Origin: an uncultured bacterium
Lineage (GTDB): Bacteria; Cyanobacteriota; Vampirovibrionia; Gastranaerophilales; Gastranaerophilaceae
Length of the DNA: 64,000 nucleotides
Assembly: GCA_949288725.1 (NCBI GenBank)
Contig: CASELF010000027.1
Location: 1 to 64,000 of the forward strand
Direction: 5' to 3'
The notes beneath the pieces were generated by a model, which saw only the letters and a list, made by a program, of their open reading frames with translations, searched no databases and was not told the origin of the DNA. The position numbers and the translations under genes are program-made. Positions 6,939 through 44,161 of this stretch are shown piece after piece; the stretch's first letter is position 1, and every line of letters starts with the position of its first letter.

Positions 6939-8321
6939 CTAGAATATTTTATAAGGATTGAGGATATTATTAGGGTCGAAAATCTTTTTTATTTGGCGCA
7001 TATAATCTATTGCTCCATTATCAATAACTTTTGGCAAAAATGGCTTTTTCACCAAACCAATACCGTGCTCACCTGAGATTATACCTCCCAATCTTGCGGT
7101 TAAATCATAAATTTCAGATTTTGCTAATTTATATCTTGTATATTCATCTTTATCATTCATATCAATAGGAATTTGAGGGTGAACACTGCCATCGCCTACA
7201 TGACCTACCATGCACATAATCAAATCATATTTTGCACAAATTTTTTGAATACCTTTTATCAATATTGAAAGATTTTCTCTTGGAACAACAACATCATCTG
7301 TTGTTACATTTGGTCTTAACTGTGCGCAGGCTGCCATTGAAGAATGTCTTGCATCCCAAATTTCATCGGCATCTTTTTTCTGTTTTGCATATTTTATATT
7401 TTTTGCATTATTTTGATTTAGAATATCGCAAATCAATTTCATTTGTGCATCGATTACTGTCTTAAACCCGTCAACTTCTATTATCAATGCTGCTTGTTTA
7501 TCGCAAAGCAACCCGCATTTTTTATATTCTTCAATAGTTTTAATCGCATTATTATCCATCAAGTCAATGGTTGTCGGACAAATTTGATGTTTAATAATTT
7601 GATTAACAGAATTAACCGCCTCTTCAACACTGTCAAAATAAGCAAGTAAGACTTCCGATGTTTCCGGCTTGGTTATCAACTTAACAGTAATTTCAACAAC
7701 AATTCCCAAAGTTCCTTCTGAACCTATAAAAAGGCTGCCAAGATTATAACCTGCTGCATTTTTCATTGTATTTGAACCTGTTCTAATCACAGAGCCATCA
7801 GCCATAACTACAACCATATCTATTACATAATCTCTTGTTGTTCCATATTTAAAGCCTCTTGCCCCTGCTGAATTTTGAGCAACACTTCCGCCCATAGTAG
7901 AAACCTTTAAATTGGAAGGATCCGGAGGGTAGTACAGCCCAACTTTTTCTACTTCTTTTTGCAAATCTCCAACAATAACACCGGGTTGAACACGGGCTGT
8001 CATATTCACAGGATTTATTTCTAAAATTTTGTTCATTTTTGAAAAATTCAAAACAATTCCACCATGAACAGAAACACACGCACCAACAGTATTTGTCCCT
8101 GCACCTCGGCAAATTATTGGGGTTTTGAATTTGTTTGCTAGTTTGACAATTTCTTGAACCTGTTCTACACTTTCGACAAAAACGACTGCATCCGGAATTT
8201 GAACATTATCGTGCAAATCACTTGCATCAAAAGCATAAACATACCGTTCTTCCTTTTTTGACAGCACATTTTGTTTGGGTACTTTTTTATATATATTTGC
8301 TATTAATTCCTTAGTCAACAT
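6939..8321 (-). CDS. glcD: FAD-linked oxidase, glycolate oxidase / D-lactate dehydrogenase type (GlcD family)
   Basis: The 460-residue protein has the PCMH FAD-binding domain (CRGAGTNTVGACV, STMGGSVAQNSAGAR, GSEGTLGIVVEI) and the C-terminal FAD-oxidase domain (GHVGDGSVHPQI, SGEHGIGLVKKPFL). This family oxidises glycolate, D-lactate or other 2-hydroxyacids, passing electrons to a partner protein. No GlcE/GlcF partner is adjacent. The start codon lies inside the last codons of the giant coiled-coil gene (11-base overlap, ATGTTGACTAA), so the two are probably translationally coupled although a functional link is not obvious. Confidence 0.9.
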   Translation of the reverse strand: MLTKELIANIYKKVPKQNVLSKKEERYVYAFDASDLHDNVQIPDAVVFVESVEQVQEIVKLANKFKTPIICRGAGTNTVGACVSVHGGIVLNFSKMNKILEINPVNMTARVQPGVIVGDLQKEVEKVGLYYPPDPSNLKVSTMGGSVAQNSAGARGFKYGTTRDYVIDMVVVMADGSVIRTGSNTMKNAAGYNLGSLFIGSEGTLGIVVEITVKLITKPETSEVLLAYFDSVEEAVNSVNQIIKHQICPTTIDLMDNNAIKTIEEYKKCGLLCDKQAALIIEVDGFKTVIDAQMKLICDILNQNNAKNIKYAKQKKDADEIWDARHSSMAACAQLRPNVTTDDVVVPRENLSILIKGIQKICAKYDLIMCMVGHVGDGSVHPQIPIDMNDKDEYTRYKLAKSEIYDLTARLGGIISGEHGIGLVKKPFLPKVIDNGAIDYMRQIKKIFDPNNILNPYKIF

Positions 8322-11300
8322 AAGATGCCAGTTTTTCTATATTGATACTCAATTTTGCAATTTGCTTATCGATTTTATCAATCTTTCTTGTAACTTTTGT
8401 GTCATCCATATCTTCTACCGCTGAAAGAATTTTTTCAATAGTCATTTCTAATCTGTCTATTCTTTCTTGCTGTTCTTCAAATTTATCTTCGATACCTGAA
8501 AGTTTGGAAATTTGTTTTTCGAAAAATGCTAAACGTTCTTGTTGTTCATCAAATTTTTCTTCCAAAGAATTTAGAATAACAGTTTGTTCAGGCAAATCTT
8601 TTTTCAAACTTTCAATTACTGATTTTACCTCAACAATTTCTTCAGCGTTTGTTGAAATTTTGTTCATGCTATCGCTTGCTGAATCAATCCATTCTCCAAC
8701 GTATATCAAGGCTTGACGCATTACGGCATCTGAGGCATTTGAATGTTCTAATAATTTTGTAACCTTATCAACTTTTGATGTTAATTGTTCTGTAAGATTT
8801 CTGCTAAAGGTTTCAATATTATTATTTATTGCATTATACGTTTCACCTGATTTCACTACCATATGTTTTGATAGCGCAGTCAAACCCTCAATATCACTAT
8901 TTATCCTATCAAAATTCAATTGAAGACTTAGAAGTTCTTCTTTTGACAATGAATCTTGCAATTCAGAAACGGAACTTCCGATTTTATTAATATTTTCAAG
9001 CAAAGATGAAAGTTGAGCAGTTTGAGATTCTTGCTCATTTGTTTGCAAATCCTTTAAAGCAAGTCTTAATTTTGCTAAATCAGATTCGATATCTTGCATT
9101 GAATATGTATAATCTGATTCATCCTCTGCACTTGTAATTTGTTTCAATTGGTCAGTTACAGCTGCAAGATTTTGATTAATTTCATCTGTTTTTTCTTCAA
9201 CAAAATCCTTGATATCCTCAGATTCTTCAACAAAAGAAACCTGTTCAAACACAGCAACAACAGTTGCCATAATTGATTCTTTCATTTCTTTTATTGTTTT
9301 TTGAATTTGTTTCGTATTTTGAACAGTATTCAAATTACTAACTTCTACGGTTAACTCTTTCAAACATTTTTTAACCGCTTCAGTTTTTTGATTGTGCTCA
9401 AGGCTATCGATGTAATCCATTTGAGCCATTATCAAATCTTTTACATCTTTAAATTCTTTCTGTGAATATTCATTACCATGTTTAGATAGTGAATCTATTT
9501 TATTATTAATTACCTCTAAAATAGCCGTAATTTTTAAATCGGAATCAGAATATTTCTTAACAGCAGAAATATTTTCTTCAACATTTTCCAGCGTTTCTCT
9601 GATTTCATCCAAATCAACAGAAGCATCGGTATTTGCAACAATATCAACCTTTGCGTCAAGCAAATCTAACTTTTGTTTTATTTCATCCACAAATTGAGGA
9701 GCATTAGCAAGTTCGCCACCACCAATTTTATTTTCTATATTTTCAAGTCGTTCTCTGACCTCATCAGCCCATTCTTCATTTCCTGACTCAGCAAGAATAT
9801 CAACTTTGCTTTCTATTAGACCTAATTTATCATTAAGTTCTTCAATTAAATCTTCATTACCTGATATAGCAAGAACATCAACTTTATTTTCAATAAGTTC
9901 TAATTTGTCCTTAACTTCATCAGCAATAGACACACCCGCAATTTTTGCAAATTCATCAAGTTTTTGGGTCAGATTTTCGACTTTTTGCCTTATGTCTTCT
10001 ACACCTTCAATACCTGAATCAACATGAATTTTATCAACCTTATCTTCAACATTCAATAAGGTGTACATCAAATCATCGACATAACCTGAATTATCAGATT
10101 CGCCATCACCATCAGATGAAACAATAAAATTAATCTTTTCCTCAATTATATTTAACTTATCTTTTAAATCTTCAAGATCAAAATCTCCATCTGAATTAGC
10201 CAAAACATCAAGTTTTCTGTTGATAAGGTTTAATAAATCTGTAGTTTCGATATTATTTGCAAGTTGGGTATTAGCAAGCATATCTCGCAACTCTTCAAAT
10301 AATTCATAATCATCAGATTCCGCTAAAATATCAACCTTTGCATTCAACAACTCAATCATTGAACCAATTTTAGGATCTAAAGTACTTGATAATGCGCCAT
10401 CCTTCAATTGGCTAACAAGAGTTTTGACATCCTGAACCCAATCACAACTGTCTGTCAGTGCAAGAATATCTAATTTGCCTAAAATTAACTCTAATGTTGT
10501 ACCTATCTTTCCGTTTACAATATATGATTTTAAGTCTTCTAACCATTCTCCGCTACTTATTCGCTTCAAGATCTTGTTGACTTTTCTTGAAACTTCAGCA
10601 AATTCTTCCGGATCAATATTGGTAGTAATATTTACAGAATTTATTGTATCTTGGCATTCCTCAGGAGTTAAAACATTTTCAACCTTCTTATGCAACTTTT
10701 TAACATCAGTTTTGAAACAATCAAGCGCTTCTATAAAGTTAAAATCATTTTCACCGGTTAAAACTGCCTTATTAACATCACTATCTAATGAAGGCAAAGA
10801 ATCAGTAAGAGAATCCGACTTTTTCTCTTCTATTGTAATAATTGTATCTTCACCTGATTCATTAATTTCTTTAGTTTCTGTAACCTTGCGGACGACAATA
10901 TTATTCATTTTTTCTTGTATTGCACGAAGAATATTTTTTATTTCCGCATTCTCACCTGACAAATCTCGAACAACTTCTGCAAATTTATTATAATCGCTTC
11001 TAACTTCTACCAAGACTTGTCTTGTTAATAAACTTACATCATCATGCTGAGCCTGCAACTCTTTGAAAGTAACTGCATCAGATTGATTTTCACCATCTTC
11101 AGCCTGTTCATCTTTTGGTGCATTTTCTTGAATTTGTCTTATTGTAAATGCTTTTCCAAGTATGCTGTCACGTAATTCATCAATAGCATTTATAATTCTT
11201 TCATTGTTTAATGAAACGGTTAATAATGATTTAAGTTCTTCATGCTGTTCATTCAATTGTAATTTTATATCATCAGCAACTTCATTAAGAATTTCCATTT

Positions 11301-14300
11301 GAGAGTTTTTAAAATCAGCAATATGTGCTGCAAACTCTTTTATTTCAACCATTTCATCAGTATTTGGAGGAACAATTTTATTTAGAGTTTCCACAACTGT
11401 ATCCTGCAATTCATCCATTTTGCGAATTACAGAATCTACATCATTCAATACAAATGATTTTATATTTTCTTCAATATTACTTAAATCATTAGACAACTGT
11501 TCGTATGTATAATCCAAACGGCTAAGTGTTGCTTGAGAAATCTGATTATCATTTTTAAGTTCATCATTAAATGATTGATGCAAATCACTCAAATCGACCT
11601 TGATATTTTTTGCAAAATCTGCATTTGTAAATAGATTTTGAAGCATTTGACGAATTGGTGTAATTTCTTCAAGCAATTTATCAGATTTTGCATTAATTGC
11701 ACCGATAACATCTGTATTAATTAACTCTAATTCTTGCTTATAATCTGCTAATTTATTGTCTGTATCATCCAACTGATTATACAATTCGGAATTTTGAATG
11801 TTTTCATTTCTGACATCTTGAATAAATTCCAAAAGCATAGTTGTTTTTTCTTCTAAAAGTGCAGCATTATACGCAAAACCTTGTTGAAGTTGAGTATCTA
11901 TACTTGTTGTCAAATCCTCAAGATTATGGCCCAAATCTTCTAATCTGTCAGTTACAAAATCCGCAACACTTTTCTCTTTTGATTCTTCTTCATATTTTAA
12001 AGATTTATACGTTTCTCCAAGAGTAAATATCATATCTTTAATTTCAGATATTTCTTTCATTGAAGCCTTTAAATCTTGATTTGAATAAGGTTCATCCAGT
12101 GTTTTTGTATATTCTTGATACTCATTTAATTTAGCAATAATATCTGTTAACGCATTTTCATTTTGCCCTTGATAAAGCAACAAATCTTCTTCAATTTTTA
12201 ATAGTTTATTCTTAACATTTTCAGCAACAGCAAAATCAGAAACATCAAGAATTCTCTTAATTTCACCTAAATAATTCTGTAGAATATCAATAGTTTCTTC
12301 ACTATTACTTTCAAATTCTTCATACGTATCTTTTCTGTCTTCTAAAATATTTTTAATTTCAGAAATTGCATTTTTAATTTCCTGAGTATCAACTTTGCTA
12401 ACTGTAGTCAAATACTCTGAAATATTTGTCAAGGTATCTTCAACAACAGTTGAACGATTTTCAACAATTTCTTTTATCGCCTGAATATTTATAGAATCAA
12501 GTTTTTCCAATATTGCAACCTGATATTCTTTGATTGCAATATAATCTGAATTGATTTTATCGGTATTAGAAACAATTACATCTAATAAATGTTTTATCTC
12601 ATCCGTAAAGGTTTCAAATTCTTTACCACTAATTATATTTTCAACCGATGTTTGAATTTCAGACAAATGTTCAACAACAGCATCATTTTGTAATTCTGAA
12701 GTATGAATAAATTCAGATTTCAAATCCTCTATTTTTTTACAAACATCAGAAATTGTATCGTTAATCGTTTGGGAATTGTCCTTTGATGAAATTTCACTCA
12801 ATTCACCTACAATAGATTCAACAACTTTTAATACTTTTAAAACATCTTCCTTATCAGATTTTTCATCAATTTTGGAAATTATAGTTTCTGTATTTTCTTT
12901 AATTCTTGAATTTGTTAACCAATCTTGAATTGAAGCAACTTTTGACTTGACATCACCAAATTGTTCTTTTATATCTAGAATATTTTTTACTATATCAGAA
13001 TTAAATTCCTCCAATTTATTGACAACAGATTGTTGATATTCAGAAATTCCATTATAATTTGCTTCAGACTTATCAATATTAGCAAGAAGTTTTTCAGAAA
13101 CCTCCTTTAACTCATCCACAAAGGCATTAAAATCACTACCTGTTACAATATTATCAACCTTGTCCTGCAAACTTGATAAGTTAGTAATAAGAACCTCATT
13201 ATGAACATTTGAATTGTTAACAATATCACTTTTCAAATCATCAATTTTTTCACTTACATCAGCGATAGTATCAATCACAACTTTTGTATTGTCTTTGGCT
13301 GAAATTTCGCCAAGCTCGCCAACGATAGATTCTACAACCTTTAATACCTTTAACAGGTCTTCTCTGTCAGGTTTTTCTTTTATTTGAGATAATATATCCT
13401 GCGTACCTTCTTTTATATTTGAATTGTTTAACCAATCTTGAACTGCAGATACATTTGACTGAAGATTTTCAACTTGAGTTTTTAAATCTAAAATATTTTT
13501 TACTATATCTGTATTTAAGTTGTCTAATTTATCGCTGACTTTTTGCTGATAATCACAAATTTGAACATAATTTTCACCGGTTTTATCTATACTAGAAACA
13601 ATATTATCTAATATTGATTTTAAATCATCTACAAATGAACTAAAATCACTACCAGTTACAACATTATCAACTTTGTCTTTCAAGGTTGATAAATTTGAGA
13701 TGAGTGTTTCATTATTAGAATTTGCACTATTTACAATATCATTTTTTAGGCCTTCTATTTTTTCACTAATTTCTGATAATGTATCAACTACAACCTTTGT
13801 GTTTGATTTTTCTGAAATTTCGCCAAGTTCACCAACTATAGTTTCTACCGTCTTCAAGACCTTCAACACATCATCTTTATCGGATTTACTGTCAATTTTG
13901 TTGATTATATTTTGTGCATTTTCTTTTATATTTGAATCATTTAACCAGTCTTGAATTGAAGATACATTATTATTAATACCTTCAAGGTTAGATTTTAAGC
14001 CGGCAACATTATCAATAATATCTGTATTAATATTATCCAATTTATCAATAATACTTTTTTGATATTCTGCAATTTCATTGTAACCACCTTGAGCACTGTC
14101 AAAAGAGTCAAGCAACTTTTGCATAAATTCTTTCAACTCTACAACAAATGAATTGAAATCGCTGCCTGAAACTACAGAATTTAACTTTTCTTGCAAATCT
14201 GAAATATTAGTAACAATAGTTTCATTTTTGTTTTCAGAATGGTTTAAAATTTCGGTTTTTAAATCATCTAACTTGTCACTAACATCCCAAATTGTATCAA

Positions 14301-16491
14301 TAACATTTTGTGTATTATCTTTTTGAGAAATTTCACTCAACTCATTAACGATAGATTCAACGCCCTCAAGTATTTTTTGAACATCATCTTTATCAGATTT
14401 ACCGCTAATCATAGAAAGAATATTCTTTGTATTTTCCTTGATTTTTGAATTATCCAGCCAATCCTGGACAGAAGTAACATGAGATTTTACTTCACCGACC
14501 TGCTCTTTAATATCTAAAATATCTTTTACGACATCAGTATTTATAGCCTCTAATTTATTAAGTACAGCCTGCTGATATTCATAAATAGCATTATAACCTT
14601 CCTCAGACTTGTCACATGCCAAAAGCAACTTTTGCAAGAAATCTTTTAATTCGTCAACAAAAGAATTAAATTCAGAACCCGTAACAATAGAATCAACCTT
14701 GTTTAATATTTCGGACAAATTAACGATAACAGTATCATTGTGCATCTCGGCAGTACTAATGAAATCATTTTTCAAATCCTCAATCATTTGGTAAACATCT
14801 GAAAGAGTATTTCGAACTTTTTTGGCATCAGCATTTTGAGAAAGTTCTTCAACACAACTGATAACAGATTCCATTGTATCCAAGATTTTGAACAATTCTT
14901 CTCTTGTCGGCTTATCTTTTATCTGAGCCGCAATTTCATCTGTATTTTCTTTTAAGTTTGACCTAGTAAGCCAATCCTCAATTGAAGAAGTCTTATCATA
15001 TATATTTTCAAATTCTTTGTCGAAATTAACATTTTTAACTTCGTCTTTTACTTCATCCAATTTTGCTGAAACATCTGCAACATCAGACTTTCCGGCAACC
15101 TCTTGAAGATTTTCCACAAGGCTTAACTGGTTAGTATTAAGCATCTCCATATCTTTATGGGTTGGAAGTTTTTCAACTTTATCTAATATTTCATCTGTAT
15201 TAGAGATAATTTCTTTAAGTGACTTATTTGCCTCATTATAAGAATCCAAAATTTTATCAACATCATCTTTTTGAGGCAATTTTTTAAGCATTTCAGTTAC
15301 ATGATTTTTAATATCATAAGCCTCATTTGCAAATGAAATTCTATCAATAGATTCTAAAACTTCAGTTTTCACAACCTCGTTGATATCAGTAATTATATTT
15401 TTGCAAACATTTAACTCTGTAGAAACATCGTTGATATTATGAGTCAAATCGCCTAAAACTTCTCTTGAATCAAATTTATCAATTTCTTCATCAATCAAAG
15501 TTAATTTGTCATACAAATTTTTTGTTGATTTTTCAAGGTAAGTAGTATCAGGAATTGCTTCAATATTTTTAGTAACAATAGCCAATTGTTGTTTTAAATT
15601 ATCGGTTTGAGCGACAAGAGAATTAGAGATTTCAACCAAATTAGAAAATAATTCCTTTGTCACAGAATCATCTAACTTTTGTTTTATAACATCAGTTGAG
15701 GCCAAAACTTCGCTGACATCATTTTTTTCAGCAGTATCAGAAAGTTTGGCAGAAATATCTTCAGCTTTTTTAACTAAAGTATCAATAACACTTTGAGTAA
15801 ATTTCAAACTTTCTCCGGTAGCAACACCAGACAATAAAAGTTCTAATTGAGCATCTCTTTTATCAAGGCTTGCCAAATAATTAAAGATATCAGAAACTGT
15901 TTTTTGAATATTAGCGGTCTGTTCACTGAGTTGTTGATTAATCGCAGTCTGATCTGTCTGAATAATACCATTGATTATAGTTTTCAAATCAGAACTTACC
16001 GTATCAATAGTATATTTGTAACTATGATTAAGATTTTCAAAATCATTTCTTAATAGAGTAATAGTTCTAAGAATATCTTCTTTATCGGTTTTATTTGAGG
16101 ATATTTCGGAAATTTTATTTTCAATACCTGCAAGAATGGCTTTTTGCTGGCGAATTTCGGAATAAGTTGAATTCATATTAGTAGAGAATACTTCAAAGAA
16201 TTCTTTAAGTTCGGGAGTTTTAACATGCTCATCAAGACCATTGAAAATTGCTTTTAATGCTTTTTCAATATCAGTAAATTTTACTAAGGCTGTCTGGTAG
16301 CGATCATCAGCATTTTTAGTAACTTCAGCCAAATATGATTTTATAAAATCAGCAGATGCTGAATTTCTGTCAATTACTTCTAACTTATTGGCAATACTAA
16401 CCAACAATCTTTCAAAACTTTCGCTGCTGGTGGCATTTGCCCTTTTTATCTCCCTCAACGTTTCAAAGATTAAATCTAATTCTTGAGCCAT
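8311..16491 (-). CDS. Giant 2726-residue coiled-coil repeat protein, unknown function
   Basis: This single uninterrupted frame occupies about one eighth of the window. The product is almost entirely helical, rich in Glu, Lys, Asp, Ile, Leu and Asn with few Cys, Trp or Pro, and has no signal peptide or membrane segment, so it should be cytoplasmic. Five units of exactly 171 residues (marked by Trp at 507, 678, 849, 1020 and 1191, each in [QE]DWL) form its middle. A second block of shorter units with the theme KVDxLAxSGNEE follows in the C-terminal half. The C-terminus ends in heptad-like EEQQERIDRLE segments. It resembles structural, tethering or cytoskeletal filaments in composition only. I do not recognise the family. 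Start at ATG 16491 behind AAGGAT. Confidence 0.88.
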   Translation of the reverse strand: MAQELDLIFETLREIKRANATSSESFERLLVSIANKLEVIDRNSASADFIKSYLAEVTKNADDRYQTALVKFTDIEKALKAIFNGLDEHVKTPELKEFFEVFSTNMNSTYSEIRQQKAILAGIENKISEISSNKTDKEDILRTITLLRNDFENLNHSYKYTIDTVSSDLKTIINGIIQTDQTAINQQLSEQTANIQKTVSDIFNYLASLDKRDAQLELLLSGVATGESLKFTQSVIDTLVKKAEDISAKLSDTAEKNDVSEVLASTDVIKQKLDDSVTKELFSNLVEISNSLVAQTDNLKQQLAIVTKNIEAIPDTTYLEKSTKNLYDKLTLIDEEIDKFDSREVLGDLTHNINDVSTELNVCKNIITDINEVVKTEVLESIDRISFANEAYDIKNHVTEMLKKLPQKDDVDKILDSYNEANKSLKEIISNTDEILDKVEKLPTHKDMEMLNTNQLSLVENLQEVAGKSDVADVSAKLDEVKDEVKNVNFDKEFENIYDKTSSIEDWLTRSNLKENTDEIAAQIKDKPTREELFKILDTMESVISCVEELSQNADAKKVRNTLSDVYQMIEDLKNDFISTAEMHNDTVIVNLSEILNKVDSIVTGSEFNSFVDELKDFLQKLLLACDKSEEGYNAIYEYQQAVLNKLEAINTDVVKDILDIKEQVGEVKSHVTSVQDWLDNSKIKENTKNILSMISGKSDKDDVQKILEGVESIVNELSEISQKDNTQNVIDTIWDVSDKLDDLKTEILNHSENKNETIVTNISDLQEKLNSVVSGSDFNSFVVELKEFMQKLLDSFDSAQGGYNEIAEYQKSIIDKLDNINTDIIDNVAGLKSNLEGINNNVSSIQDWLNDSNIKENAQNIINKIDSKSDKDDVLKVLKTVETIVGELGEISEKSNTKVVVDTLSEISEKIEGLKNDIVNSANSNNETLISNLSTLKDKVDNVVTGSDFSSFVDDLKSILDNIVSSIDKTGENYVQICDYQQKVSDKLDNLNTDIVKNILDLKTQVENLQSNVSAVQDWLNNSNIKEGTQDILSQIKEKPDREDLLKVLKVVESIVGELGEISAKDNTKVVIDTIADVSEKIDDLKSDIVNNSNVHNEVLITNLSSLQDKVDNIVTGSDFNAFVDELKEVSEKLLANIDKSEANYNGISEYQQSVVNKLEEFNSDIVKNILDIKEQFGDVKSKVASIQDWLTNSRIKENTETIISKIDEKSDKEDVLKVLKVVESIVGELSEISSKDNSQTINDTISDVCKKIEDLKSEFIHTSELQNDAVVEHLSEIQTSVENIISGKEFETFTDEIKHLLDVIVSNTDKINSDYIAIKEYQVAILEKLDSINIQAIKEIVENRSTVVEDTLTNISEYLTTVSKVDTQEIKNAISEIKNILEDRKDTYEEFESNSEETIDILQNYLGEIKRILDVSDFAVAENVKNKLLKIEEDLLLYQGQNENALTDIIAKLNEYQEYTKTLDEPYSNQDLKASMKEISEIKDMIFTLGETYKSLKYEEESKEKSVADFVTDRLEDLGHNLEDLTTSIDTQLQQGFAYNAALLEEKTTMLLEFIQDVRNENIQNSELYNQLDDTDNKLADYKQELELINTDVIGAINAKSDKLLEEITPIRQMLQNLFTNADFAKNIKVDLSDLHQSFNDELKNDNQISQATLSRLDYTYEQLSNDLSNIEENIKSFVLNDVDSVIRKMDELQDTVVETLNKIVPPNTDEMVEIKEFAAHIADFKNSQMEILNEVADDIKLQLNEQHEELKSLLTVSLNNERIINAIDELRDSILGKAFTIRQIQENAPKDEQAEDGENQSDAVTFKELQAQHDDVSLLTRQVLVEVRSDYNKFAEVVRDLSGENAEIKNILRAIQEKMNNIVVRKVTETKEINESGEDTIITIEEKKSDSLTDSLPSLDSDVNKAVLTGENDFNFIEALDCFKTDVKKLHKKVENVLTPEECQDTINSVNITTNIDPEEFAEVSRKVNKILKRISSGEWLEDLKSYIVNGKIGTTLELILGKLDILALTDSCDWVQDVKTLVSQLKDGALSSTLDPKIGSMIELLNAKVDILAESDDYELFEELRDMLANTQLANNIETTDLLNLINRKLDVLANSDGDFDLEDLKDKLNIIEEKINFIVSSDGDGESDNSGYVDDLMYTLLNVEDKVDKIHVDSGIEGVEDIRQKVENLTQKLDEFAKIAGVSIADEVKDKLELIENKVDVLAISGNEDLIEELNDKLGLIESKVDILAESGNEEWADEVRERLENIENKIGGGELANAPQFVDEIKQKLDLLDAKVDIVANTDASVDLDEIRETLENVEENISAVKKYSDSDLKITAILEVINNKIDSLSKHGNEYSQKEFKDVKDLIMAQMDYIDSLEHNQKTEAVKKCLKELTVEVSNLNTVQNTKQIQKTIKEMKESIMATVVAVFEQVSFVEESEDIKDFVEEKTDEINQNLAAVTDQLKQITSAEDESDYTYSMQDIESDLAKLRLALKDLQTNEQESQTAQLSSLLENINKIGSSVSELQDSLSKEELLSLQLNFDRINSDIEGLTALSKHMVVKSGETYNAINNNIETFSRNLTEQLTSKVDKVTKLLEHSNASDAVMRQALIYVGEWIDSASDSMNKISTNAEEIVEVKSVIESLKKDLPEQTVILNSLEEKFDEQQERLAFFEKQISKLSGIEDKFEEQQERIDRLEMTIEKILSAVEDMDDTKVTRKIDKIDKQIAKLSINIEKLASYVD
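9450..10500 (-). repeat. Short-unit repeat block in giant protein (about 26 residues per unit)
   Basis: The encoded protein repeats the theme KVDxLAxSGNEE..EEL.DKL..IE. Two neighbouring units are 26 residues each (starting ENKVDVLAISGNED and ESKVDILAESGNEE). Flanking units are more diverged and vary in length. Boundaries are approximate. Confidence 0.65.
12406..14975 (-). repeat. Five tandem 513-bp (171-residue) coding repeats in giant protein
   Basis: The tryptophan codons of the [QE]DWL motif fall at 14973-14971, 14460-14458, 13947-13945, 13434-13432 and 12921-12919. The spacing is exactly 513 bases every time. Each unit carries the ordered landmarks DWL.NS.IKENT, KSDKDDVLKVLK.VE, ISEK.NT, GSDFNSFVDELK, EYQQ.V..KL and NTDIVKNI. 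Units are diverged in sequence but contain no length change. Confidence 0.85.
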
Positions 16492-34032: not shown

Positions 34033-34086
34033 AAAAAGATTGTTAATAAATGTAAAAAATAAAAGATAAAATAACAAAATTTTATC

Positions 34087-34113
34087 TTGACGTGTATTCT
34101 AATGATGTAGATT
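34087..34113 (+). promoter_or_regulatory. Candidate promoter for the 34-39 kb three-gene operon
   Basis: TTGACG (34087-34092) is followed after 15 bases by TAGATT (34108-34113), 12 bases before the ATG. Spacing is short of the optimum, so this is tentative. A TGGAG ribosome site precedes the start. Confidence 0.3.
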
Positions 34114-34125
34114 TGTGGAGTTATC

Positions 34126-35172
34126 ATGATATCACCAATTAGTAATTTTAGGGAAAACAGATTAGTAACATTTAAATCAGAGCCGAAAGAAAAAAATGGG
34201 GCGGATTCTGCATACGATGAGGATACTCTTTTAAACAACAATTTTGCCACAAGAACGAGGATAGGGTTAGACAAGTTAACAAAAGCATTTACAATCTATC
34301 CGGCAAAAGGATTAAAAGGGAGCATCAACTCAAACTTTTATGAATTTTTAACACTGGGACAAAACGTACCATTTATAATAGGTAGTGCAACATTAATTGC
34401 AATATTTAACAGTGTTAACAAGCATTTTTCACATAATGCACTGAAAAAAGCATCCAAACTTGGTAACAAGATGGCATTAGGCGTATTATTATATGCTTTA
34501 ACTAAAGAAGCCTCAAAAGTATTGATAACAAAACCAATCCAAATGATAACCGGAATTGATACAGAATTACCTTATGCAAAGGTCAACTATTTCTTACAGG
34601 AAAGACCTGGGGTTTATGATGATTTAACCAGTATTGAATACCATAAGGTAGGAGAAAGTGTAGATTTTCCACGTTGGGATCTGCTATACGGAGATCCTAA
34701 AAAAGGAGAAGCAAGAAACTTCAGATACGATAAAATTGCACAAAAGAACGGGTTAGGAACAGATTTAAATGATTCTGACCAAGATGTAAAACCAATGTAC
34801 AAAGAAGTTTTAGTAAAATCAAAATTAGCAAAAAGTTTTTCATCTTTCTTATGGGCAGTAACCGCAGTAGCACTGGCATTCCAACAGCCATGGGAGGATT
34901 ATTTTAACGCCGCAACATTAAAAGTATGGAAGGGTAAAGATTTCATGCATTCATTAAAAGTTTTTGGCAGAAGTTTAAAAAGAAGTATCAAAAAACTATA
35001 TGAAGGTCCAGTCCATGCGACATCTCCAATAACAAAACATGCCGGAAAAGCACTTTTAGGGCTTGCAGCAATAACCACAATATTAGGGGTTGCAAACTCA
35101 GTGCACTTAACTAAAAAACCACAAAAACACAATGACGTTATCAATCCTAAAAAAGAAAGTGTGGTGTGCTAA
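34126..35172 (+). CDS. Unknown membrane-associated protein (first gene of GH13 operon)
   Basis: The 348-residue protein has a polar N-terminus with LVTFKSE near residue 15, then hydrophobic segments at about 80-95 (FIIGSATLIAIFNSV), 112-128, 240-255 (SFLWAVTAVALAF) and near the C-terminus (ALLGLAAITTILGVANSV). No signal peptide or family is recognised. Its stop codon directly abuts the next start, so it is translationally linked to the 849-residue protein and the GH13 enzyme. A short stretch with FPRWDLLYGD resembles IPWDLYKDDE of the next protein, hinting at distant relatedness. Function unknown. Confidence 0.8.
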   Translation: MISPISNFRENRLVTFKSEPKEKNGADSAYDEDTLLNNNFATRTRIGLDKLTKAFTIYPAKGLKGSINSNFYEFLTLGQNVPFIIGSATLIAIFNSVNKHFSHNALKKASKLGNKMALGVLLYALTKEASKVLITKPIQMITGIDTELPYAKVNYFLQERPGVYDDLTSIEYHKVGESVDFPRWDLLYGDPKKGEARNFRYDKIAQKNGLGTDLNDSDQDVKPMYKEVLVKSKLAKSFSSFLWAVTAVALAFQQPWEDYFNAATLKVWKGKDFMHSLKVFGRSLKRSIKKLYEGPVHATSPITKHAGKALLGLAAITTILGVANSVHLTKKPQKHNDVINPKKESVVC

Positions 35173-37722
35173 ATGAGAACAACGAATTTATTACAATCAT
35201 ACATAAGAAATAATCCCAACACACAGCAATATCAATCAGATAAAGTATCTAAAGATTTTGATGTTCACAGAGAACTGACCAATAGAACATTTATAAAACC
35301 TTTGCCAAGTAATGGTAAATTACTAAATCCTACAATAATGGATTATCCTGCAGAGATACAAAAAGACATAAATTATGATATAAAAGCCTTTTATCACGCA
35401 ATAAAAGGGGAAGCAAACGACCACGAATTAGGACGATTGAATGATGTAGGTATGAAATTTGGAGGTTTGGTACTTGCAGCATACCTATTTACAAAAAAAC
35501 AAACACCAAAAACTAAATTATTTGAATTTATAGGATTTGGAACATTTTTTGCAGCAATGGATTTATGGCCAAAATTATTCATCCAACTTCCTGCACAACT
35601 GGTTCACGGATTTAATGTAAGACAATATTATGAAGACAACTACGGAAGAAAGAAATTATTCTATCAAGATCACCAATTTATTCCTTGGGATTTGTACAAG
35701 GATGATGAAATCAACAGAATTGGTGACAGATTAGGCATACCAAAGGATATTCCAAACAGAAGAAACGCAATCCAAGAAAAAATGCGTCAAATAGCATTAC
35801 AAAATAACACATTATGGATGTTGACATCAGGTTTTGCAACACCTCTAATAAGTGCTTTGCTATGTAATGCTCTTGATAAACCTGTAAACAAATTGGCAGA
35901 TCAACATATGGATAAATTTGCAAACAATTTACTTGTAAACTTTACCAAAGAAATTCCGAAATATGATTTCAGCCAAAATACAGAAGCATTAAACAAAATC
36001 TTGACAGAAAACACAGGAAAACCAATAACCAAAGACGTATATAACGCAATATTCAGCAATATGCGAGAAGGCTTGGATAAAGTAGTAAGTGACGGATTAG
36101 AAGAGGATCTGAAAATATTATTACCACAAAATCAAGATTACAAGGTTACAGAATCCAGTGTAAAAACAATCCAAGATACAGTAAGACAACTTCTAAAACC
36201 AGCAAATCTGCCTAAAGAAATAATTGAGCAAATTCTACCAAACGCAGAAAATTTAACAGAAGAATTTAAAAATCGCGGATTGATAAATGGTACATACAAA
36301 GAATTTTCAGAACATGTAAAAGCATTACAGAAGATATTGCAAAACAACATAAATGCAGCAGCTTCAGGACTGGATGAAGGAGCAAGAGAAGTTCTTGAAT
36401 TCCATACCTCAAGACTTCTACATGCTAATTCAATCCAAAAAGATGCCCCAATTTATAAGGTACTAAAATTTGAACCTGCAAACATACTTACACCTGAAAT
36501 AGCAAAAACATTAAAAACTGTAAGTCAAAGATTAAATACTTTTAAAGCAGAAAATGCAATTTTAGACAGATACTCTTATATAAAAACAGCCCAAGCACCT
36601 GAAACAGGACTTGCAAACCTTTGGAACAATATGTCTGAAAAGATATTTTCAACAATGAACTTTACAAAGGATGAAATAAAACTTGCAAGAATAGACAACG
36701 AAATCGCAACAGAAATATTACGAAATAAGATGGAAGCAATAGTTGCAGACAAGGCAAGTTATGAGAAATTCATAAGCACAATGGAATCATTACTTTCAAA
36801 CTTATACAGTAAATCATCACCAATGGATATGACACAAGAAGAAAACTTATATAAAACAATAGTAAATTCAACTTGTGACAATGCGACACAGACATTATTG
36901 AAAAACGGAATGAAGCATACAGCAGAAAGCATTGGGGGAATTATTGACGGTAATAACAACTTAGTATCACCAAACACCTCAGCAAGACACTTGATGATGA
37001 AATTTGTTGAAGACAGAATAAATGGTGTAAAAAGTTCATTCTACAGATTCTTAAACTTTGCAGACCTATATTACAGAATAGCGCACCTGGATGGTCATGA
37101 CACAGCAATATTAAATAACAGAATACCAAGAGAAATCAAAGAAGAAATGGTTGAATTGGCAAAAACAGTTATGCTGGAAGGTCATAATGCAGATTTCTCA
37201 GTAAAATTCTGGCAATTAAGAAATCCTGAACCAAACAGAAATGACTATTCACAAATCGAAACTGAAGGCGGAAAAGTAATAAACAAATACTTTGGAGTTG
37301 GAGAAAAAGAATGCGTTGAATTTGGTGCAGACAGACATTATTACGAAAGCGTAATGAGATTAATGTATGGAGAAGACTTGCACCCTGACACATTAGCAAA
37401 AATAAACAACTCAGGTTTCTTTGAAGACTTTAAAAAATTCAGAAAAGATGTAATGGAACTTATTGGTGGAGAAAGTTACTTCGCAAAACCTAACCATATA
37501 ATAAGCGGAGCAACAAGAAAAGCATCTTCAGAAGAAAAATTCATCTTAACAGGATGTACACCGGCAGATATAGCATACAAAGCATTCCACAACAAATTTA
37601 ACAGTGGAAAATGGTTCAGTGTATTTGGAAAATTAGGAGCAGGACTAATTGGAGTAACATTACTGGCACAATTGCTTATCGGAAGGAACAAAAATCCTTG
37701 GAAGCAGAAGGAGGATAAATAA
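35173..37722 (+). CDS. Unknown 849-residue membrane-associated protein (second gene of GH13 operon)
   Basis: The protein has a polar N-terminus, hydrophobic stretches around 95-105 (FGGLVLAAYLF), 117-132 (FIGFGTFFAAMDLW), 218-232 (MLTSGFATPLISALLC), a long helical middle of about 500 residues, and a final hydrophobic segment (GKLGAGLIGVTLLAQLLIG) just before the C-terminus. This suggests membrane tethering at both ends with a large soluble helical domain. I recognise no family. The start follows the previous stop with no gap, and the stop overlaps the GH13 start by one base behind GGAGG. Confidence 0.82.
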   Translation: MRTTNLLQSYIRNNPNTQQYQSDKVSKDFDVHRELTNRTFIKPLPSNGKLLNPTIMDYPAEIQKDINYDIKAFYHAIKGEANDHELGRLNDVGMKFGGLVLAAYLFTKKQTPKTKLFEFIGFGTFFAAMDLWPKLFIQLPAQLVHGFNVRQYYEDNYGRKKLFYQDHQFIPWDLYKDDEINRIGDRLGIPKDIPNRRNAIQEKMRQIALQNNTLWMLTSGFATPLISALLCNALDKPVNKLADQHMDKFANNLLVNFTKEIPKYDFSQNTEALNKILTENTGKPITKDVYNAIFSNMREGLDKVVSDGLEEDLKILLPQNQDYKVTESSVKTIQDTVRQLLKPANLPKEIIEQILPNAENLTEEFKNRGLINGTYKEFSEHVKALQKILQNNINAAASGLDEGAREVLEFHTSRLLHANSIQKDAPIYKVLKFEPANILTPEIAKTLKTVSQRLNTFKAENAILDRYSYIKTAQAPETGLANLWNNMSEKIFSTMNFTKDEIKLARIDNEIATEILRNKMEAIVADKASYEKFISTMESLLSNLYSKSSPMDMTQEENLYKTIVNSTCDNATQTLLKNGMKHTAESIGGIIDGNNNLVSPNTSARHLMMKFVEDRINGVKSSFYRFLNFADLYYRIAHLDGHDTAILNNRIPREIKEEMVELAKTVMLEGHNADFSVKFWQLRNPEPNRNDYSQIETEGGKVINKYFGVGEKECVEFGADRHYYESVMRLMYGEDLHPDTLAKINNSGFFEDFKKFRKDVMELIGGESYFAKPNHIISGATRKASSEEKFILTGCTPADIAYKAFHNKFNSGKWFSVFGKLGAGLIGVTLLAQLLIGRNKNPWKQKEDK

Positions 37723-39554
37723 TGATTACTCTAAATTTAACTCCAGAAACTAAAAATAGCCAATATACTAAATATGGAAAAGGAAACAACATGAATTCTT
37801 TGTATAACAAAATTACATTTGGAGCCAACTTTTTAGATAAATATAAAAATACTGCAATAACAAACAATACAACAAATCCAATACAAGAGACAAAAGCAGA
37901 ACAAACTACCCCACAAAAGTTATCCGGCAGTAATTTATTAAGCCAATACTTAGAAGGTGTTGCAATTGCTAACAAACCGGCAGTAAAACCAGTAACAGAA
38001 ATCACTACAGAATCAGTAAAACCATATAAAAATGATTTGAGAACACTATTCCAAACAAACAGAGTTAAACTGTTAGCAATAGTACCAAGAACATTTAATG
38101 CACAAGACAAAAACGGAAACGAATATATTGACGGTAATGAAATTTGCGGAACATTTCTCAACGCAATAAATCGTCTTGATGAAGTAAAAGCAGAAGGTTT
38201 CAACACCTTACACGTTCTGCCTATAAACCCACCCGGCAAAGAAAATGCAATGGGAACAGCAGGTTCTGTATATTCACCGGAGGATTTATTAAAAATAGAT
38301 CCGATGTTAATCGATAAAAATGATCCACGTTCAGATAAAGAACAATTTAAAGCCTTTGTTGATGCTTGTCACAACAGAGGAATAAGAGTAATGGTAGATT
38401 TGCCAAGTTGTGCATCATTTACGCTATATGAAAACAAACCTGAGTTGATGGCACACGAAAGAAACGGCTTAGCAAAAACACCACAAGGCTGGTACGATAT
38501 CAGAATGTTTGAACCTTGGGAAGATGAAGGCAAAAGAACATTAAACCCTGAACTTCTTGAATATCACAGAAAATTTGTTGATATGATGATAGATGCAGGA
38601 GTTGATGGTATCAGAGCAGATGTAGCCAGAGCAAAACCTGTTGAATTTTGGGACATTATAATTCCATATTCAAGAAAACGAAATCCTGAATTTGCCTGGT
38701 TAGCAGAAACATATACTTATGAAGACGCTTCCCCTCAAGCAAATATGCCATACGACAGACCGGAAGATTCCTTAAGAGCAGGATTTGACGCATATTACGG
38801 ACAATATCACATATTCCACGAATGGAATACTGCAAAAGAATTGCACAATTATGTTATTGATAATCTTAATATGTCATACAGACTTGAAAAGGGTAAATCA
38901 TTAATCGGCTCATTTGCAACCCACGATGATATTTCACCAATGTACCACGGTGGAACGGTATATTGCAATTTAACATCAGGATTGCAAGCGACATTACCAA
39001 TGCTAAACCCTTACGCAGTTGATGGTTTCCAATCAGGAGATTACTATAACTATAAATATGGAAACACCTATTCTGAAAAAACACAAACAGATTCCAACGA
39101 GATGAAAACACACCCAGGAAGATTAGACATATTCAACCTGTCACGCAAACCGGGTGGAGATAATCCTGAAATTGGACAATTCTTTGCAGATGCAATGAAA
39201 TTTAGAGATAAATATCAAGATTTAATAACAACAGGATCTTATATTGTACTAAACAAAGACGGCGATAAAAAAGATCAAATTATTGCATTTGCAAGACACA
39301 AAAGAGGTAAAACACTTTTAGTTATAGCAAACCGTAACGTTAATAGAAGAACAACAGGAAAAGTTATTGTTCCAACCCTAAAAGAACACCAAAAACTTGA
39401 AAACTTGCTTCCATCATACGGAGAAGAAAGTAAATTCCAAGTATCACAAGGAAAAGTTACGGTAGACTTAGGCCCGGGCAGAATTCACGTATTTGAAATA
39501 GATACTCCATATATTGAATCCTACACAAACCAAGTATATAAACAAAATATTTAA
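37722..39554 (+). CDS. GH13 (alpha-amylase superfamily) enzyme
   Basis: After a ~100-residue N-terminal extension (with KITFGANFL near residue 30) comes a TIM barrel with all three GH13 catalytic residues: Asp300 in GIRADVA, Glu329 in LAETYTYED and Asp402 in FATHDD. Region I is IRVMVDLPSCAS. The C-terminus is a beta domain. Such enzymes act on alpha-glucans or alpha-glucosides as hydrolases or transglycosylases. No signal peptide is visible, so the location is uncertain. It is the third gene of an operon with two unknown membrane proteins. An internal ATG at 37791 is possible, but GGAGG favours 37722. Confidence 0.88.
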   Translation: MITLNLTPETKNSQYTKYGKGNNMNSLYNKITFGANFLDKYKNTAITNNTTNPIQETKAEQTTPQKLSGSNLLSQYLEGVAIANKPAVKPVTEITTESVKPYKNDLRTLFQTNRVKLLAIVPRTFNAQDKNGNEYIDGNEICGTFLNAINRLDEVKAEGFNTLHVLPINPPGKENAMGTAGSVYSPEDLLKIDPMLIDKNDPRSDKEQFKAFVDACHNRGIRVMVDLPSCASFTLYENKPELMAHERNGLAKTPQGWYDIRMFEPWEDEGKRTLNPELLEYHRKFVDMMIDAGVDGIRADVARAKPVEFWDIIIPYSRKRNPEFAWLAETYTYEDASPQANMPYDRPEDSLRAGFDAYYGQYHIFHEWNTAKELHNYVIDNLNMSYRLEKGKSLIGSFATHDDISPMYHGGTVYCNLTSGLQATLPMLNPYAVDGFQSGDYYNYKYGNTYSEKTQTDSNEMKTHPGRLDIFNLSRKPGGDNPEIGQFFADAMKFRDKYQDLITTGSYIVLNKDGDKKDQIIAFARHKRGKTLLVIANRNVNRRTTGKVIVPTLKEHQKLENLLPSYGEESKFQVSQGKVTVDLGPGRIHVFEIDTPYIESYTNQVYKQNI

Positions 39555-40285
39555 GTAATATAAAAAACTAAATTAACTAAAAAATCTGCAACAAGCATAT
39601 ATATAGTTGAAAGGATGGCAGCCTGAGTAGTTGAATAACCGACTTCTTTGGCTCCACCTTTTGTTTCATATCCCTTAGATGCGCAGACAAGAGCAATCAA
39701 AGCACCAAAGATACAAGCCTTTAACAAACTTATATAAATATCTTTAGTCGCCATCCAAGCCCAAGCAGATGCCATATATCTTGCGGGGTTAAGATTAATA
39801 GTACCCCAAGCAATAACCATACCACCAACAATGCCAATAAATTCAGCGATAAGAACCACCATAGGAACTGTTATTGCAGAAGCAATAATTCTTGGAGTGA
39901 AATAATAACCGACAGGACTAATTTTTAACGTTTTAATCGCATCAACTTGAGAAGTAACTTGCATATTAGCAATCTCAGCAGAAATAGCAGTCCCTGCTCT
40001 TGCGCCAATTGCAAGTGCAACAAACCCAGGAGCAATTTCTCTAATCATAACAACAGCGATTGTTCCACCAATATAAGCTTCAGCACCTGTCATCAAAAAT
40101 TCCTTTGAAACCTGAATTGCAATAACTGCTGCTGAAATAAAAACAATAATAAGCGATATAGGCAATGAATCATAACTTATAGCCGCTGCTTGAGAAACAA
40201 CATTTTTGAATTTAACATTTCCGCCCAAAATATACTTCAAGCATTCAAACAAATTTTGTACGCATAATCCTAAAAATTTAATCAA
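39551..40285 (-). CDS. mlaE: MlaE-family ABC transporter permease
   Basis: The 244-residue protein has the MlaE/YrbE permease pattern: LPISLIIVFISAAVIAIQVS, EIAPGFVALAIGARAGTAISAEIANM and SQVDAIKTLKISPVGYY. MlaE moves phospholipids between inner and outer membranes together with an ATPase and an MCE-domain protein, neither of which is adjacent. It starts with TTG after AAAGGGG. It is convergent with the GH13 gene (4-base overlap). Its presence supports an outer membrane. Confidence 0.9.
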   Translation of the reverse strand: MIKFLGLCVQNLFECLKYILGGNVKFKNVVSQAAAISYDSLPISLIIVFISAAVIAIQVSKEFLMTGAEAYIGGTIAVVMIREIAPGFVALAIGARAGTAISAEIANMQVTSQVDAIKTLKISPVGYYFTPRIIASAITVPMVVLIAEFIGIVGGMVIAWGTINLNPARYMASAWAWMATKDIYISLLKACIFGALIALVCASKGYETKGGAKEVGYSTTQAAILSTIYMLVADFLVNLVFYIT

Positions 40286-42319: not shown

Positions 42320-44161
42320 ATGAATGAAGTTATAAATGTATGTTTAGCATGTGATGACAACTATTCCAAGTATGCCGGAGTAGTAATTGCTTCAATACTT
42401 GCAAATGCAAATACAGATGACAGATTAAATTTCTACATTCTTGACGGAGGAATCGCTCAAGAAAATAAACAAAAAATCCAAGAACTAAAATCAATTAAAG
42501 ATTGTGAAATAAACTTTATCGATATAGATGAAAATCTTTTTGAGGATTACAAAAAAGTTCCGACACTAGAACATATTAGTTTTGCAACTTTTTATAGGCT
42601 AAAACTTACATCTTTATTACCTAATGTTGACAAAATTATATATTTAGACTGCGATATGGCTGTAATGACAAGCCTTAAAGAATTATTTGAACTTGATTTT
42701 GGAAACAATTATGCTTATGGTGTTCGAGATATAGGAAAAAAATTACTAAAGAAAAATCCCAATTATGTTAATGCTGGAATGTTATTTTTCAATCTAAAAT
42801 TAATGAGAGAAGATAATATTGAACAAAAATTTTTGGACTATATAAAATCCGGACAACGCTTAAGGTATGCAGACCAAGATATAATAAATGGGGCGATGTT
42901 AGGAAAAATAAAAATAGCAGATGAAGAGTGGAATGTTCAATCAAGTAATTTTACAAATCGTTCAAGTTACACAAACAAACCTAGAATAATTCACTTTATT
43001 GCTAAAAGAAAACCATGGATGTGGGCATCGTTCAGTTATCACAGAAATATATTTTTCAAATATTTACAAATTACTCCTTGGAAATTATCCGACAAAGATT
43101 TAAAACATTGGACAAAAGACAATCAAATAGCATCACTAATTGCGTACCTAAAATATCGACCTCTATTTTTATTAAGACCAAGATTTTATTATGCCGTATA
43201 TAGAACATACATTAAAGATCAAATTTTTAAATTATGTTCAATAAAAGAATATAACGAGACTCATAATATCCTAAGAATCCTCGGAATAAAAATAAAATTT
43301 CCCAAAATTGAATATATAAAAAAACAAAAAGAAAATCCATTCCACTATTACCAGCAAAACAATATTGATATAACTACATTACCCCAAGCAACAGGTCAAA
43401 TAAGAGATATACAACTTGCAGATTTAGCATTACTAAAAGAATTAGATTATGTCTGCAAACAAAACAATCTTCAATATTGGTTAGATGGAGGAACCCAACT
43501 TGGAGCAATACGTCATAAAGGTTTTATTCCGTGGGATGATGATATTGATGTAGGAATGATAAGAGAAGATTACGAAAAAATAATTGAAGCATTCCAAAAA
43601 TCTTCTAGAAACCCCGATATATTTGCAGATTATTATAAAGACAAAACAGAACCTGCACAAATGATTATAAAAATTCAGCATAAAAAATGTAAACATCTAT
43701 TTGTAGACATTTTTCCTTTTGACATATATGGAAAAGCGATTTCAACAGAAGAACAATTGGAAAAATCAAATTATATTAAATCTCAAATTCAAAATATAAG
43801 AAAACGTACTTATATAAATCAACAAGATATAAAAAGAAAAAATGCTGAATTTATGAAAAGCAAAATTCTAACAGGGATAAAAACCCAAAACAAGACAGAA
43901 ACTGATATCGTATGGGGAATAGATTTTCACCATAGATGGAGTAACTGGTTTACTAATTACAATGTAATCTATCCACTAAAACCTATTGAATTTGAAGGGC
44001 AACAATTCCCTTGCATAAATAATCCCAATGAATATTTAACCAGATTATACGGAAACTATATGTCATATCCTAAAAAAATAGGATACGGGCATAGCGCATA
44101 TGTTAATTTGACTGAACAAGACAAAAAAGTTATTGATGAATTAAAAAATTCATTGATTTAA
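42320..44161 (+). CDS. Two-domain glycosyltransferase: GT8 fused to LicD
   Basis: Residues 1-260 are a GT8 glycosyltransferase (NVCLACDDNYSKYAG, DCDM as DxD at 110-112, NAGMLFFNLKLM). Residues about 360-600 are a LicD-type nucleotidyl/phosphotransferase domain (LDGGTQLGAIRHKGFIPWDD plus DIDV). GT8 enzymes add sugars to surface glycans such as lipopolysaccharide core, and LicD-type domains attach phosphocholine or similar phospho-groups to sugars. The fusion implies one polypeptide that both extends and decorates a surface glycan. It lies 210 bases after tRNA-Thr; no Shine-Dalgarno is obvious. Confidence 0.88.
   Translation: MNEVINVCLACDDNYSKYAGVVIASILANANTDDRLNFYILDGGIAQENKQKIQELKSIKDCEINFIDIDENLFEDYKKVPTLEHISFATFYRLKLTSLLPNVDKIIYLDCDMAVMTSLKELFELDFGNNYAYGVRDIGKKLLKKNPNYVNAGMLFFNLKLMREDNIEQKFLDYIKSGQRLRYADQDIINGAMLGKIKIADEEWNVQSSNFTNRSSYTNKPRIIHFIAKRKPWMWASFSYHRNIFFKYLQITPWKLSDKDLKHWTKDNQIASLIAYLKYRPLFLLRPRFYYAVYRTYIKDQIFKLCSIKEYNETHNILRILGIKIKFPKIEYIKKQKENPFHYYQQNNIDITTLPQATGQIRDIQLADLALLKELDYVCKQNNLQYWLDGGTQLGAIRHKGFIPWDDDIDVGMIREDYEKIIEAFQKSSRNPDIFADYYKDKTEPAQMIIKIQHKKCKHLFVDIFPFDIYGKAISTEEQLEKSNYIKSQIQNIRKRTYINQQDIKRKNAEFMKSKILTGIKTQNKTETDIVWGIDFHHRWSNWFTNYNVIYPLKPIEFEGQQFPCINNPNEYLTRLYGNYMSYPKKIGYGHSAYVNLTEQDKKVIDELKNSLI

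Follow-up and report, generated by a model that had tools for sequence, protein, structure and literature searches.

What do two proteins of membrane type, neither with an annotation, have to do with the GH13 enzyme whose gene abuts theirs? The question is raised by a locus in a window of 64,000 nt (by 'window' we mean the whole stretch of DNA that was analysed), located on a 196.9-kb contig of a Gastranaerophilales assembly (2.2 Mb, 102 contigs, 96% complete). The explanation that we prefer, held tentatively and at somewhat less than an even chance, is one lineage-specific, membrane-anchored complex that would process alpha-glucan where the inner membrane faces the cytosol, with the GH13 enzyme docked via its N-terminal extension.

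The three genes and their linkage

The unit and the block in front of it have the following coordinates:

34071-34109 (+): promoter-like block upstream of P1, ATAACAAAA..TTGAC..GTATTCTAATGATG; recurs in most genus loci inspected
34126-35172 (+): P1, 348 aa, of no known family (from the ORF list)
35173-37722 (+): P2, 849 aa; P1-like N-terminal module, large helical domain, C-terminal hydrophobic helix
37722-39554 (+): GH13 enzyme, 610 aa, without signal peptide

The ORFs and the junction sequences confirmed that the three genes abut at distances of 0 and -1, as the first-pass annotation had it: a TAA stands directly before the ATG of P2 at 35173, and P2 and GH13 are joined by TAATG at 37720-37724. 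On inspection of the sequence we saw a ribosome site of GGAG type ahead of P1, GGAGG ahead of the GH13 start and no obvious site ahead of P2. At the 3′ side, the MlaE permease gene (39551-40285) is convergent and overlaps GH13 by four bases, thus the unit ends with GH13; at the 5′ side, the end of bacA is 93 bases away from P1. The conserved block at 34071-34109 may act as the promoter; as a consensus scan found promoter-like sites no commoner than in shuffles, it is conservation that singles this block out.

Among 381 candidate stretches we found 272 relatives of P2, and the best 80 of the 272 were retained; the named ones of these 80 came mostly from Candidatus Gastranaerophilales / Melainabacteria assemblies, from animal guts. 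The record with one P2 locus (L089) bears the title Muribaculaceae bacterium; its contig was probably binned wrongly.

Gene order was read in 116 loci, of which 19, with a P2 protein identical to one already counted, were removed. The strong coupling claimed in the first pass held in relatives: in 92 of the remaining 97 distinct loci the order was P1, P2, GH13 on one strand; the exceptions were one rearranged locus (L066, GH13>P1>P2) and four loci cut by contig ends (L061, L103, L119 and L124). The P1-P2 gap was within -4 to +2 in 84 of the 92 ordered loci, and the P2-GH13 gap was within -8 to +6, also in 84 of 92. This linkage is more than chance would give. The upstream flank in the genus usually holds bacA, together with genes that we take to be kdsD, kdsC and a 6-pyruvoyl-tetrahydropterin-synthase-like gene; in the loci displayed from other families of the order the flanks differ, which identifies P1, P2 and GH13 as the conserved unit. 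Among the neighbours that the unit keeps within the genus there is no glycogen gene, and among those that it keeps across families there is no export or envelope-glucan gene.

The genes also co-occur across 59 relatives (own genome included): P2 was present in 51, P1 in 49 and GH13 in 55, the last number including three weak matches to other GH13s (G042, G044 and G052; E 2e-12 to 5e-5). The mismatches, G004 and G043 (no P1) and G051 (neither P1 nor P2), are contig ends, as checked in the sequence for G043 and G051; in G051 the C-terminus of P2 is at the contig end, adjoining its GH13, and this explains a GH13 seemingly without P2. In 7 of the 59 relatives P1, P2 and a close GH13 were absent together. 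All 36 genus genomes carry P2, at one place each (as two contig-end pieces in G010 and as a fragment in G016); in the rest of the order it was found in 15 of 22 genomes, or 16 of 22 if G051 is counted. Across the phylum, a survey found P2 in 67 of 67 family genomes (16 genera), with one locus each, and in 0 of 89 genomes outside the family, three of these 89 being in the same class. All three genes are under purifying selection (dN 0.035-0.22, dS 0.8-2.6, window versus three relatives). In one relative, G055, the GH13 is broken up into two ORFs (L056:5830-7484), which reflects either an error in sequencing or a true lesion.

P1 and P2: two paralogues, probably in the membrane

The hydrophobic segments and the region common to both proteins are:

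34348-34404 (+): P1 hydrophobic segment 1, aa 75-93; family-mean hydropathy 1.10, weak
34471-34527 (+): P1 hydrophobic segment 2, aa 116-134; family-mean hydropathy 1.30
34825-34881 (+): P1 hydrophobic segment 3, aa 234-252; family-mean hydropathy 1.28
35053-35109 (+): P1 hydrophobic segment 4, aa 310-328; family-mean hydropathy 1.70
37624-37680 (+): P2 C-terminal hydrophobic segment, aa 818-836; family-mean hydropathy 1.67
34210-34911 (+): P1 module homologous to P2, aa 29-262 (hhalign)
35302-35931 (+): P2 module homologous to P1, aa 44-253 (hhalign)

Two large membrane-associated proteins had been proposed here, and the proposal stood in part. Each protein has four peaks of family-mean hydropathy (1.02, 1.32, 1.41 and 1.67 in P2) and looks membrane-bound; by this measure only the last peak of each gives a strong transmembrane call, the other three being weak. 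P1 is a probable 4-helix membrane protein.

Comparison by hhalign of P1 (29-262) with P2 (44-253) gave Prob 96 and E 4e-9 (E 7e-9 in a second alignment), while in the controls (ten unrelated families from these loci, and P2 reversed) Prob stayed below 1 and E above 0.06. Thus, P1 and P2 are paralogues with a membrane module of ∼200 residues in common; three hydrophobic segments lie within it, as does the conserved stretch '..WDLLY / ..PWDLY', and conserved inter-helix motifs are seen in both proteins. Beyond the module P2 continues with a helical domain of ∼560 residues (AlphaFold2 pLDDT mostly 80-96; 82 for the whole model) and a hydrophobic C-terminal helix; P1 continues with a shorter stretch and a C-terminal helix of its own (mean pLDDT of the model, 75). 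Homology between the two C-terminal helices was unsupported (hhalign Prob 5), and L177, a third membrane protein, whose N-terminus is similar, had no detectable relationship to P1 or P2 (Prob below 1).

No family of Pfam or NCBIfam scored above cut-off for either protein; Pfam returned nothing for P1, and for P2 sub-threshold matches to other families only. Within these two collections we saw no recognisable glucan-binding domain in P1 or P2, and no BMC shell domain in Pfam. PHROGs had no match for either, and a phage origin was rejected on this ground. A defence system was rejected as well, since PADLOC matches were weak (P2 versus a CARF model, E 0.006; GH13 versus a GlgB-labelled model, E 2e-4).

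Foldseek against PDB had no match at E<=0.001 for P1 (206 at E<=10) or P2 (75 at E<=10). The best VIA matches, apoA-IV for P1 (Z 7.0, rmsd 9.9, 152 aligned) and XPR1 for P2 (Z 6.3, rmsd 5.3, 157 aligned), were within the range of unrelated helical models. A PDB sequence search produced one match for P1 (E 0.78) and 24 for P2 (best E 2e-4), most of the latter being helical designs. The lack of a credible fold match does not prove a new fold.

Another role that one could imagine for P1 and P2 is transport: as a channel or an exporter they would carry alpha-glucan or maltodextrin that GH13 makes or trims, and a surface glucan would result. That both are predicted to be membrane proteins, and have conserved motifs between the helices, would suit such a role; nevertheless, we consider it improbable, given a single strong hydrophobic helix in each protein, no match to any transporter or export family in Pfam, NCBIfam or PHROGs, fold searches without a credible match, and no export or envelope-glucan gene kept with the unit from family to family. 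In the membrane-anchored complex that we prefer, the two paralogues would make up an anchor or scaffold, to which P2 would contribute its large helical domain.

The GH13 enzyme and its N-terminal extension

Coordinates of the enzyme's domains and residues, and of the motif that it has in common with P2, are as follows:

37932-37973 (+): conserved helix-like motif NLLSQYLEGVAIAN in the GH13 extension, aa 71-84
35185-35202 (+): N-L-L-Q-S-Y motif at the P2 start, aa 5-10
38028-39551 (+): GH13 catalytic and C-terminal domains, ∼aa 103-610; conserved tail with YKQ[NH] at its end, in 82/95
38619-38621 (+): nucleophile D300, kept 89/89
38706-38708 (+): acid/base E329, kept 89/89
38925-38927 (+): transition-state stabiliser D402, kept 89/89

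The Pfam model PF00128 matched the enzyme barely above cut-off (23.9 bits versus 22). That all GH13 catalytic residues are present proved right for the triad, which is intact, and for R298 and H401 (also kept in 89/89); it did not extend to region I, where the classical Asn-His is absent and the sequence is D-[LM]-P-S-C in 86/89 copies and D-I-P-S-C in 3/89. The region-I pattern D-x-x-x-N-H is common in GH13 enzymes, not universal.

In a profile search the closest solved structures were 4gkl (alpha-amylase), 1gju (maltodextrin glycosyltransferase), 3dhu (alpha-amylase) and GlgE. The operon enzyme has the signature of nucleophile, acid/base and stabiliser in common with the first three; compared with them, it has DLPSC in region I instead of D-x-x-x-N-H, a conserved helix-like motif in its extension, and P1 and P2 as constant neighbours. 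In the alignment the region-I Asn-His was present in the amylases 4gkl and 3dhu and absent, as in the operon enzyme, in the transferases 1gju and GlgE, which speaks, if only mildly, for transfer instead of hydrolysis. Judged from these residues, a transglycosylase is more likely than a plain amylase.

GlgE, the maltose-1-phosphate maltosyltransferase (label GH13_3), raises another alternative: the operon enzyme could be of this type, with P1 and P2 as accessory proteins. The two are distantly similar in sequence (E 1e-16), which places GlgE among the nearest solved relatives, and both are without the region-I Asn-His. On the other hand, the phosphate-binding residues of GlgE, given as N352, K355, Y357 and N395 in a passage of PMC4526890, align with K, Q, W and V in the operon enzyme; with 0 of 4 kept, the enzyme was ruled out as GlgE and the alternative is hardly credible.

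Where does the enzyme work? Judged by hydropathy of the first 40 residues, a signal peptide was present in 0 of 95 copies, and none of nine copies checked had a transmembrane segment. The genome has four GH13 genes in total, and the other three start with a hydrophobic signal-like stretch; the operon enzyme is thus most likely cytosolic. Two of the secreted paralogues (G000:C6:14190-15680 and G000:C27:79671-81137) are 39-40% identical to it in the catalytic core; they have signal peptides and lack both the extension and P1/P2 neighbours. The GH13 of contig C12 was considered as GlgB, the glycogen branching enzyme; this was ruled out, as its sequence opens with a signal peptide and it is thus another secreted GH13. 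Of the membrane-bound polysaccharide system suggested in the first pass, the linkage and the membrane-like character of P1 and P2 speak for the general idea, while the variants with a surface glucan or uptake have no support in an enzyme of this probable location; the variant with a storage granule is conceivable.

The extension, also noted in the first pass, is present and usually consists of ∼60-130 low-complexity, poorly conserved residues ahead of the catalytic domain. An EM search of the GH13 extensions alone produced one motif, [NG]-L-[LI]-x-x-Y-L-x-N-x-A-x-I-N, whose helix is amphipathic by inspection. Its part N-L-[IL]-x-x-Y is common to the GH13 extension and the P2 start: this pattern, written after viewing the GH13 and P2 sequences, is in 76/93 GH13 extensions and 80/94 P2 proteins (first 20 aa) versus 0/95 P1 proteins, 4/305 other ORF starts and 1.0% (GH13) or 0.4% (P2) of shuffles, all counts being non-independent as the loci are related. 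A 14-column matrix trained on GH13 alone placed 52% of P2 N-termini, and 7% of those of P1, above the 95th percentile set from 600 other N-termini. The motif fades outside the home family, and several GH13 extensions in other families are without it.

By analogy with encapsulation peptides, the motif may be a helix that serves docking or self-assembly and is carried by a flexible linker. Such peptides of bacterial microcompartments are described, in excerpts of PMC12339742 and PMC11157265, as a short helical motif joined to the enzyme by a disordered linker. The likeness is a works-like analogy only (helical motif plus linker); P1 and P2 match no shell family, and the putative partners of the GH13 enzyme are membrane proteins. 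In the proposed complex, a soluble retaining alpha-glucan enzyme would remodel alpha-glucan or maltodextrin chains at the cytosolic side, held to the scaffold by the conserved amphipathic helix in its flexible extension, with the motif that is also found at the P2 N-terminus.

Another possibility is that the enzyme is soluble and acts on imported maltodextrins or cytosolic glycogen, while P1 and P2 do another job at the membrane (an envelope or division scaffold) and are co-regulated only. The enzyme's lack of a transmembrane segment and of a signal peptide, as well as the lack of a recognisable glucan-binding domain in P1 and P2, would be expected then. Co-regulation only would leave unexplained why three genes stay adjacent in one order across families with differing flanks, why they are absent together in some relatives, and why P2 and GH13 have an N-terminal motif in common; we therefore rate it as unlikely.

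Alternatively, the N-terminal motif could be recognised by a non-classical route that takes the enzyme across the membrane, to work outside. This would account for an N-terminus that has a conserved motif and no classical signal peptide, and a different N-terminal motif, carried by P1, does occur in other, unrelated proteins of the genome. Still, one carrier of that wider motif is an AAA ATPase of cytosolic type, and the three other GH13s of the genome use ordinary signal peptides, so that the route seems very improbable.

Several observations concern N-termini elsewhere. An alpha/beta hydrolase at 4603-5562 (-) has an N-terminal extension with VSFSGASFFEKFVGDYL, resembling ITFGANFLDKYKN of the GH13 extension. 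The start element of P1, P-I followed by F-[KGRT], was seen in 4 of 308 sampled proteins, unrelated to each other: an AAA ATPase (L166:10746-11855), a small membrane protein (L070:10936-11391), a membrane protein (L177:18416-19345) and P1; it could be an N-terminal signal peculiar to the lineage. A looser N-terminal F-x-G motif (8.0% of N-termini versus 4.1% of internal stretches) and a stricter form (3.2% versus 1.3%) were dropped as too weak.

Alpha-glucan context and meaning for the lineage

Outside the genus, 7 of 15 loci have a second, giant GH13 protein (∼1,100-1,450 aa) next to the unit, encoded downstream in L056, L058, L059, L061, L062 and L064 and divergently upstream in L068. None of six N-termini (L058, L059, L061, L062, L064 and L068) had a signal peptide. 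Presence of such an enzyme beside the unit in some other families strengthens the link of the unit with alpha-glucan, the presumed substrate. At the same position L057 has a 1,103-aa fragment at a contig end, without a Pfam match. Several of the seven giant proteins carry an N-terminal [VL]SF[KT]G element.

The genome also encodes glycogen synthase, GH57 (3 places), GH77 (4 places) and a short phosphorylase-like gene, which makes a cytosolic alpha-glucan pool plausible. The phosphorylase-like protein (G000:C77:47085-48365; 565 aa) is matched by the Pfam phosphorylase model in parts only, and overlaps a weak glycosyltransferase-5 match. Use of starch or glycogen was inferred in published genome papers, as stated in excerpts of PMC3787301 and PMC4040986.

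Two other features of the window deserve mention: an ORF of 2726 aa at 8311-16491 (-), with no Pfam match at E<=0.001, that adjoins a FAD-linked oxidase gene, and a GT8 glycosyltransferase fused to a LicD-type domain at 42320-44161 (+).

One could speculate further that a core, single-copy P1/P2 scaffold defines most Gastranaerophilales and recruits alpha-glucan enzymes by N-terminal docking helices, the small GH13 everywhere and the giant second GH13 in some families, thus forming a shell-less glucan-processing station of no described type; this extension of the preferred reading we judge to be somewhat unlikely. In searches of the open-licence PMC literature on glycogen, alpha-amylase, glycoside hydrolases or protein families of Gastranaerophilales, Melainabacteria or Vampirovibrionia, and on GlgE, maltosyltransferases and encapsulation peptides, we found no description of a P1-P2-GH13 unit.

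The unit is real, belongs to the core of the lineage and includes two unannotated protein families. With P2 in every sampled family genome and no annotation for P1 or P2, it represents a core trait of a lineage described, in an excerpt of PMC3787301, as a non-photosynthetic sibling of Cyanobacteria. The data suggest for Gastranaerophilales a seemingly unstudied, membrane-linked way of handling glucose polymers. If this is true, dedicated scaffold proteins, together with a docking motif, would keep glycogen or maltodextrin chemistry at a membrane, and the unit would offer a concrete point of entry to the energy metabolism of gut bacteria that have been little studied.
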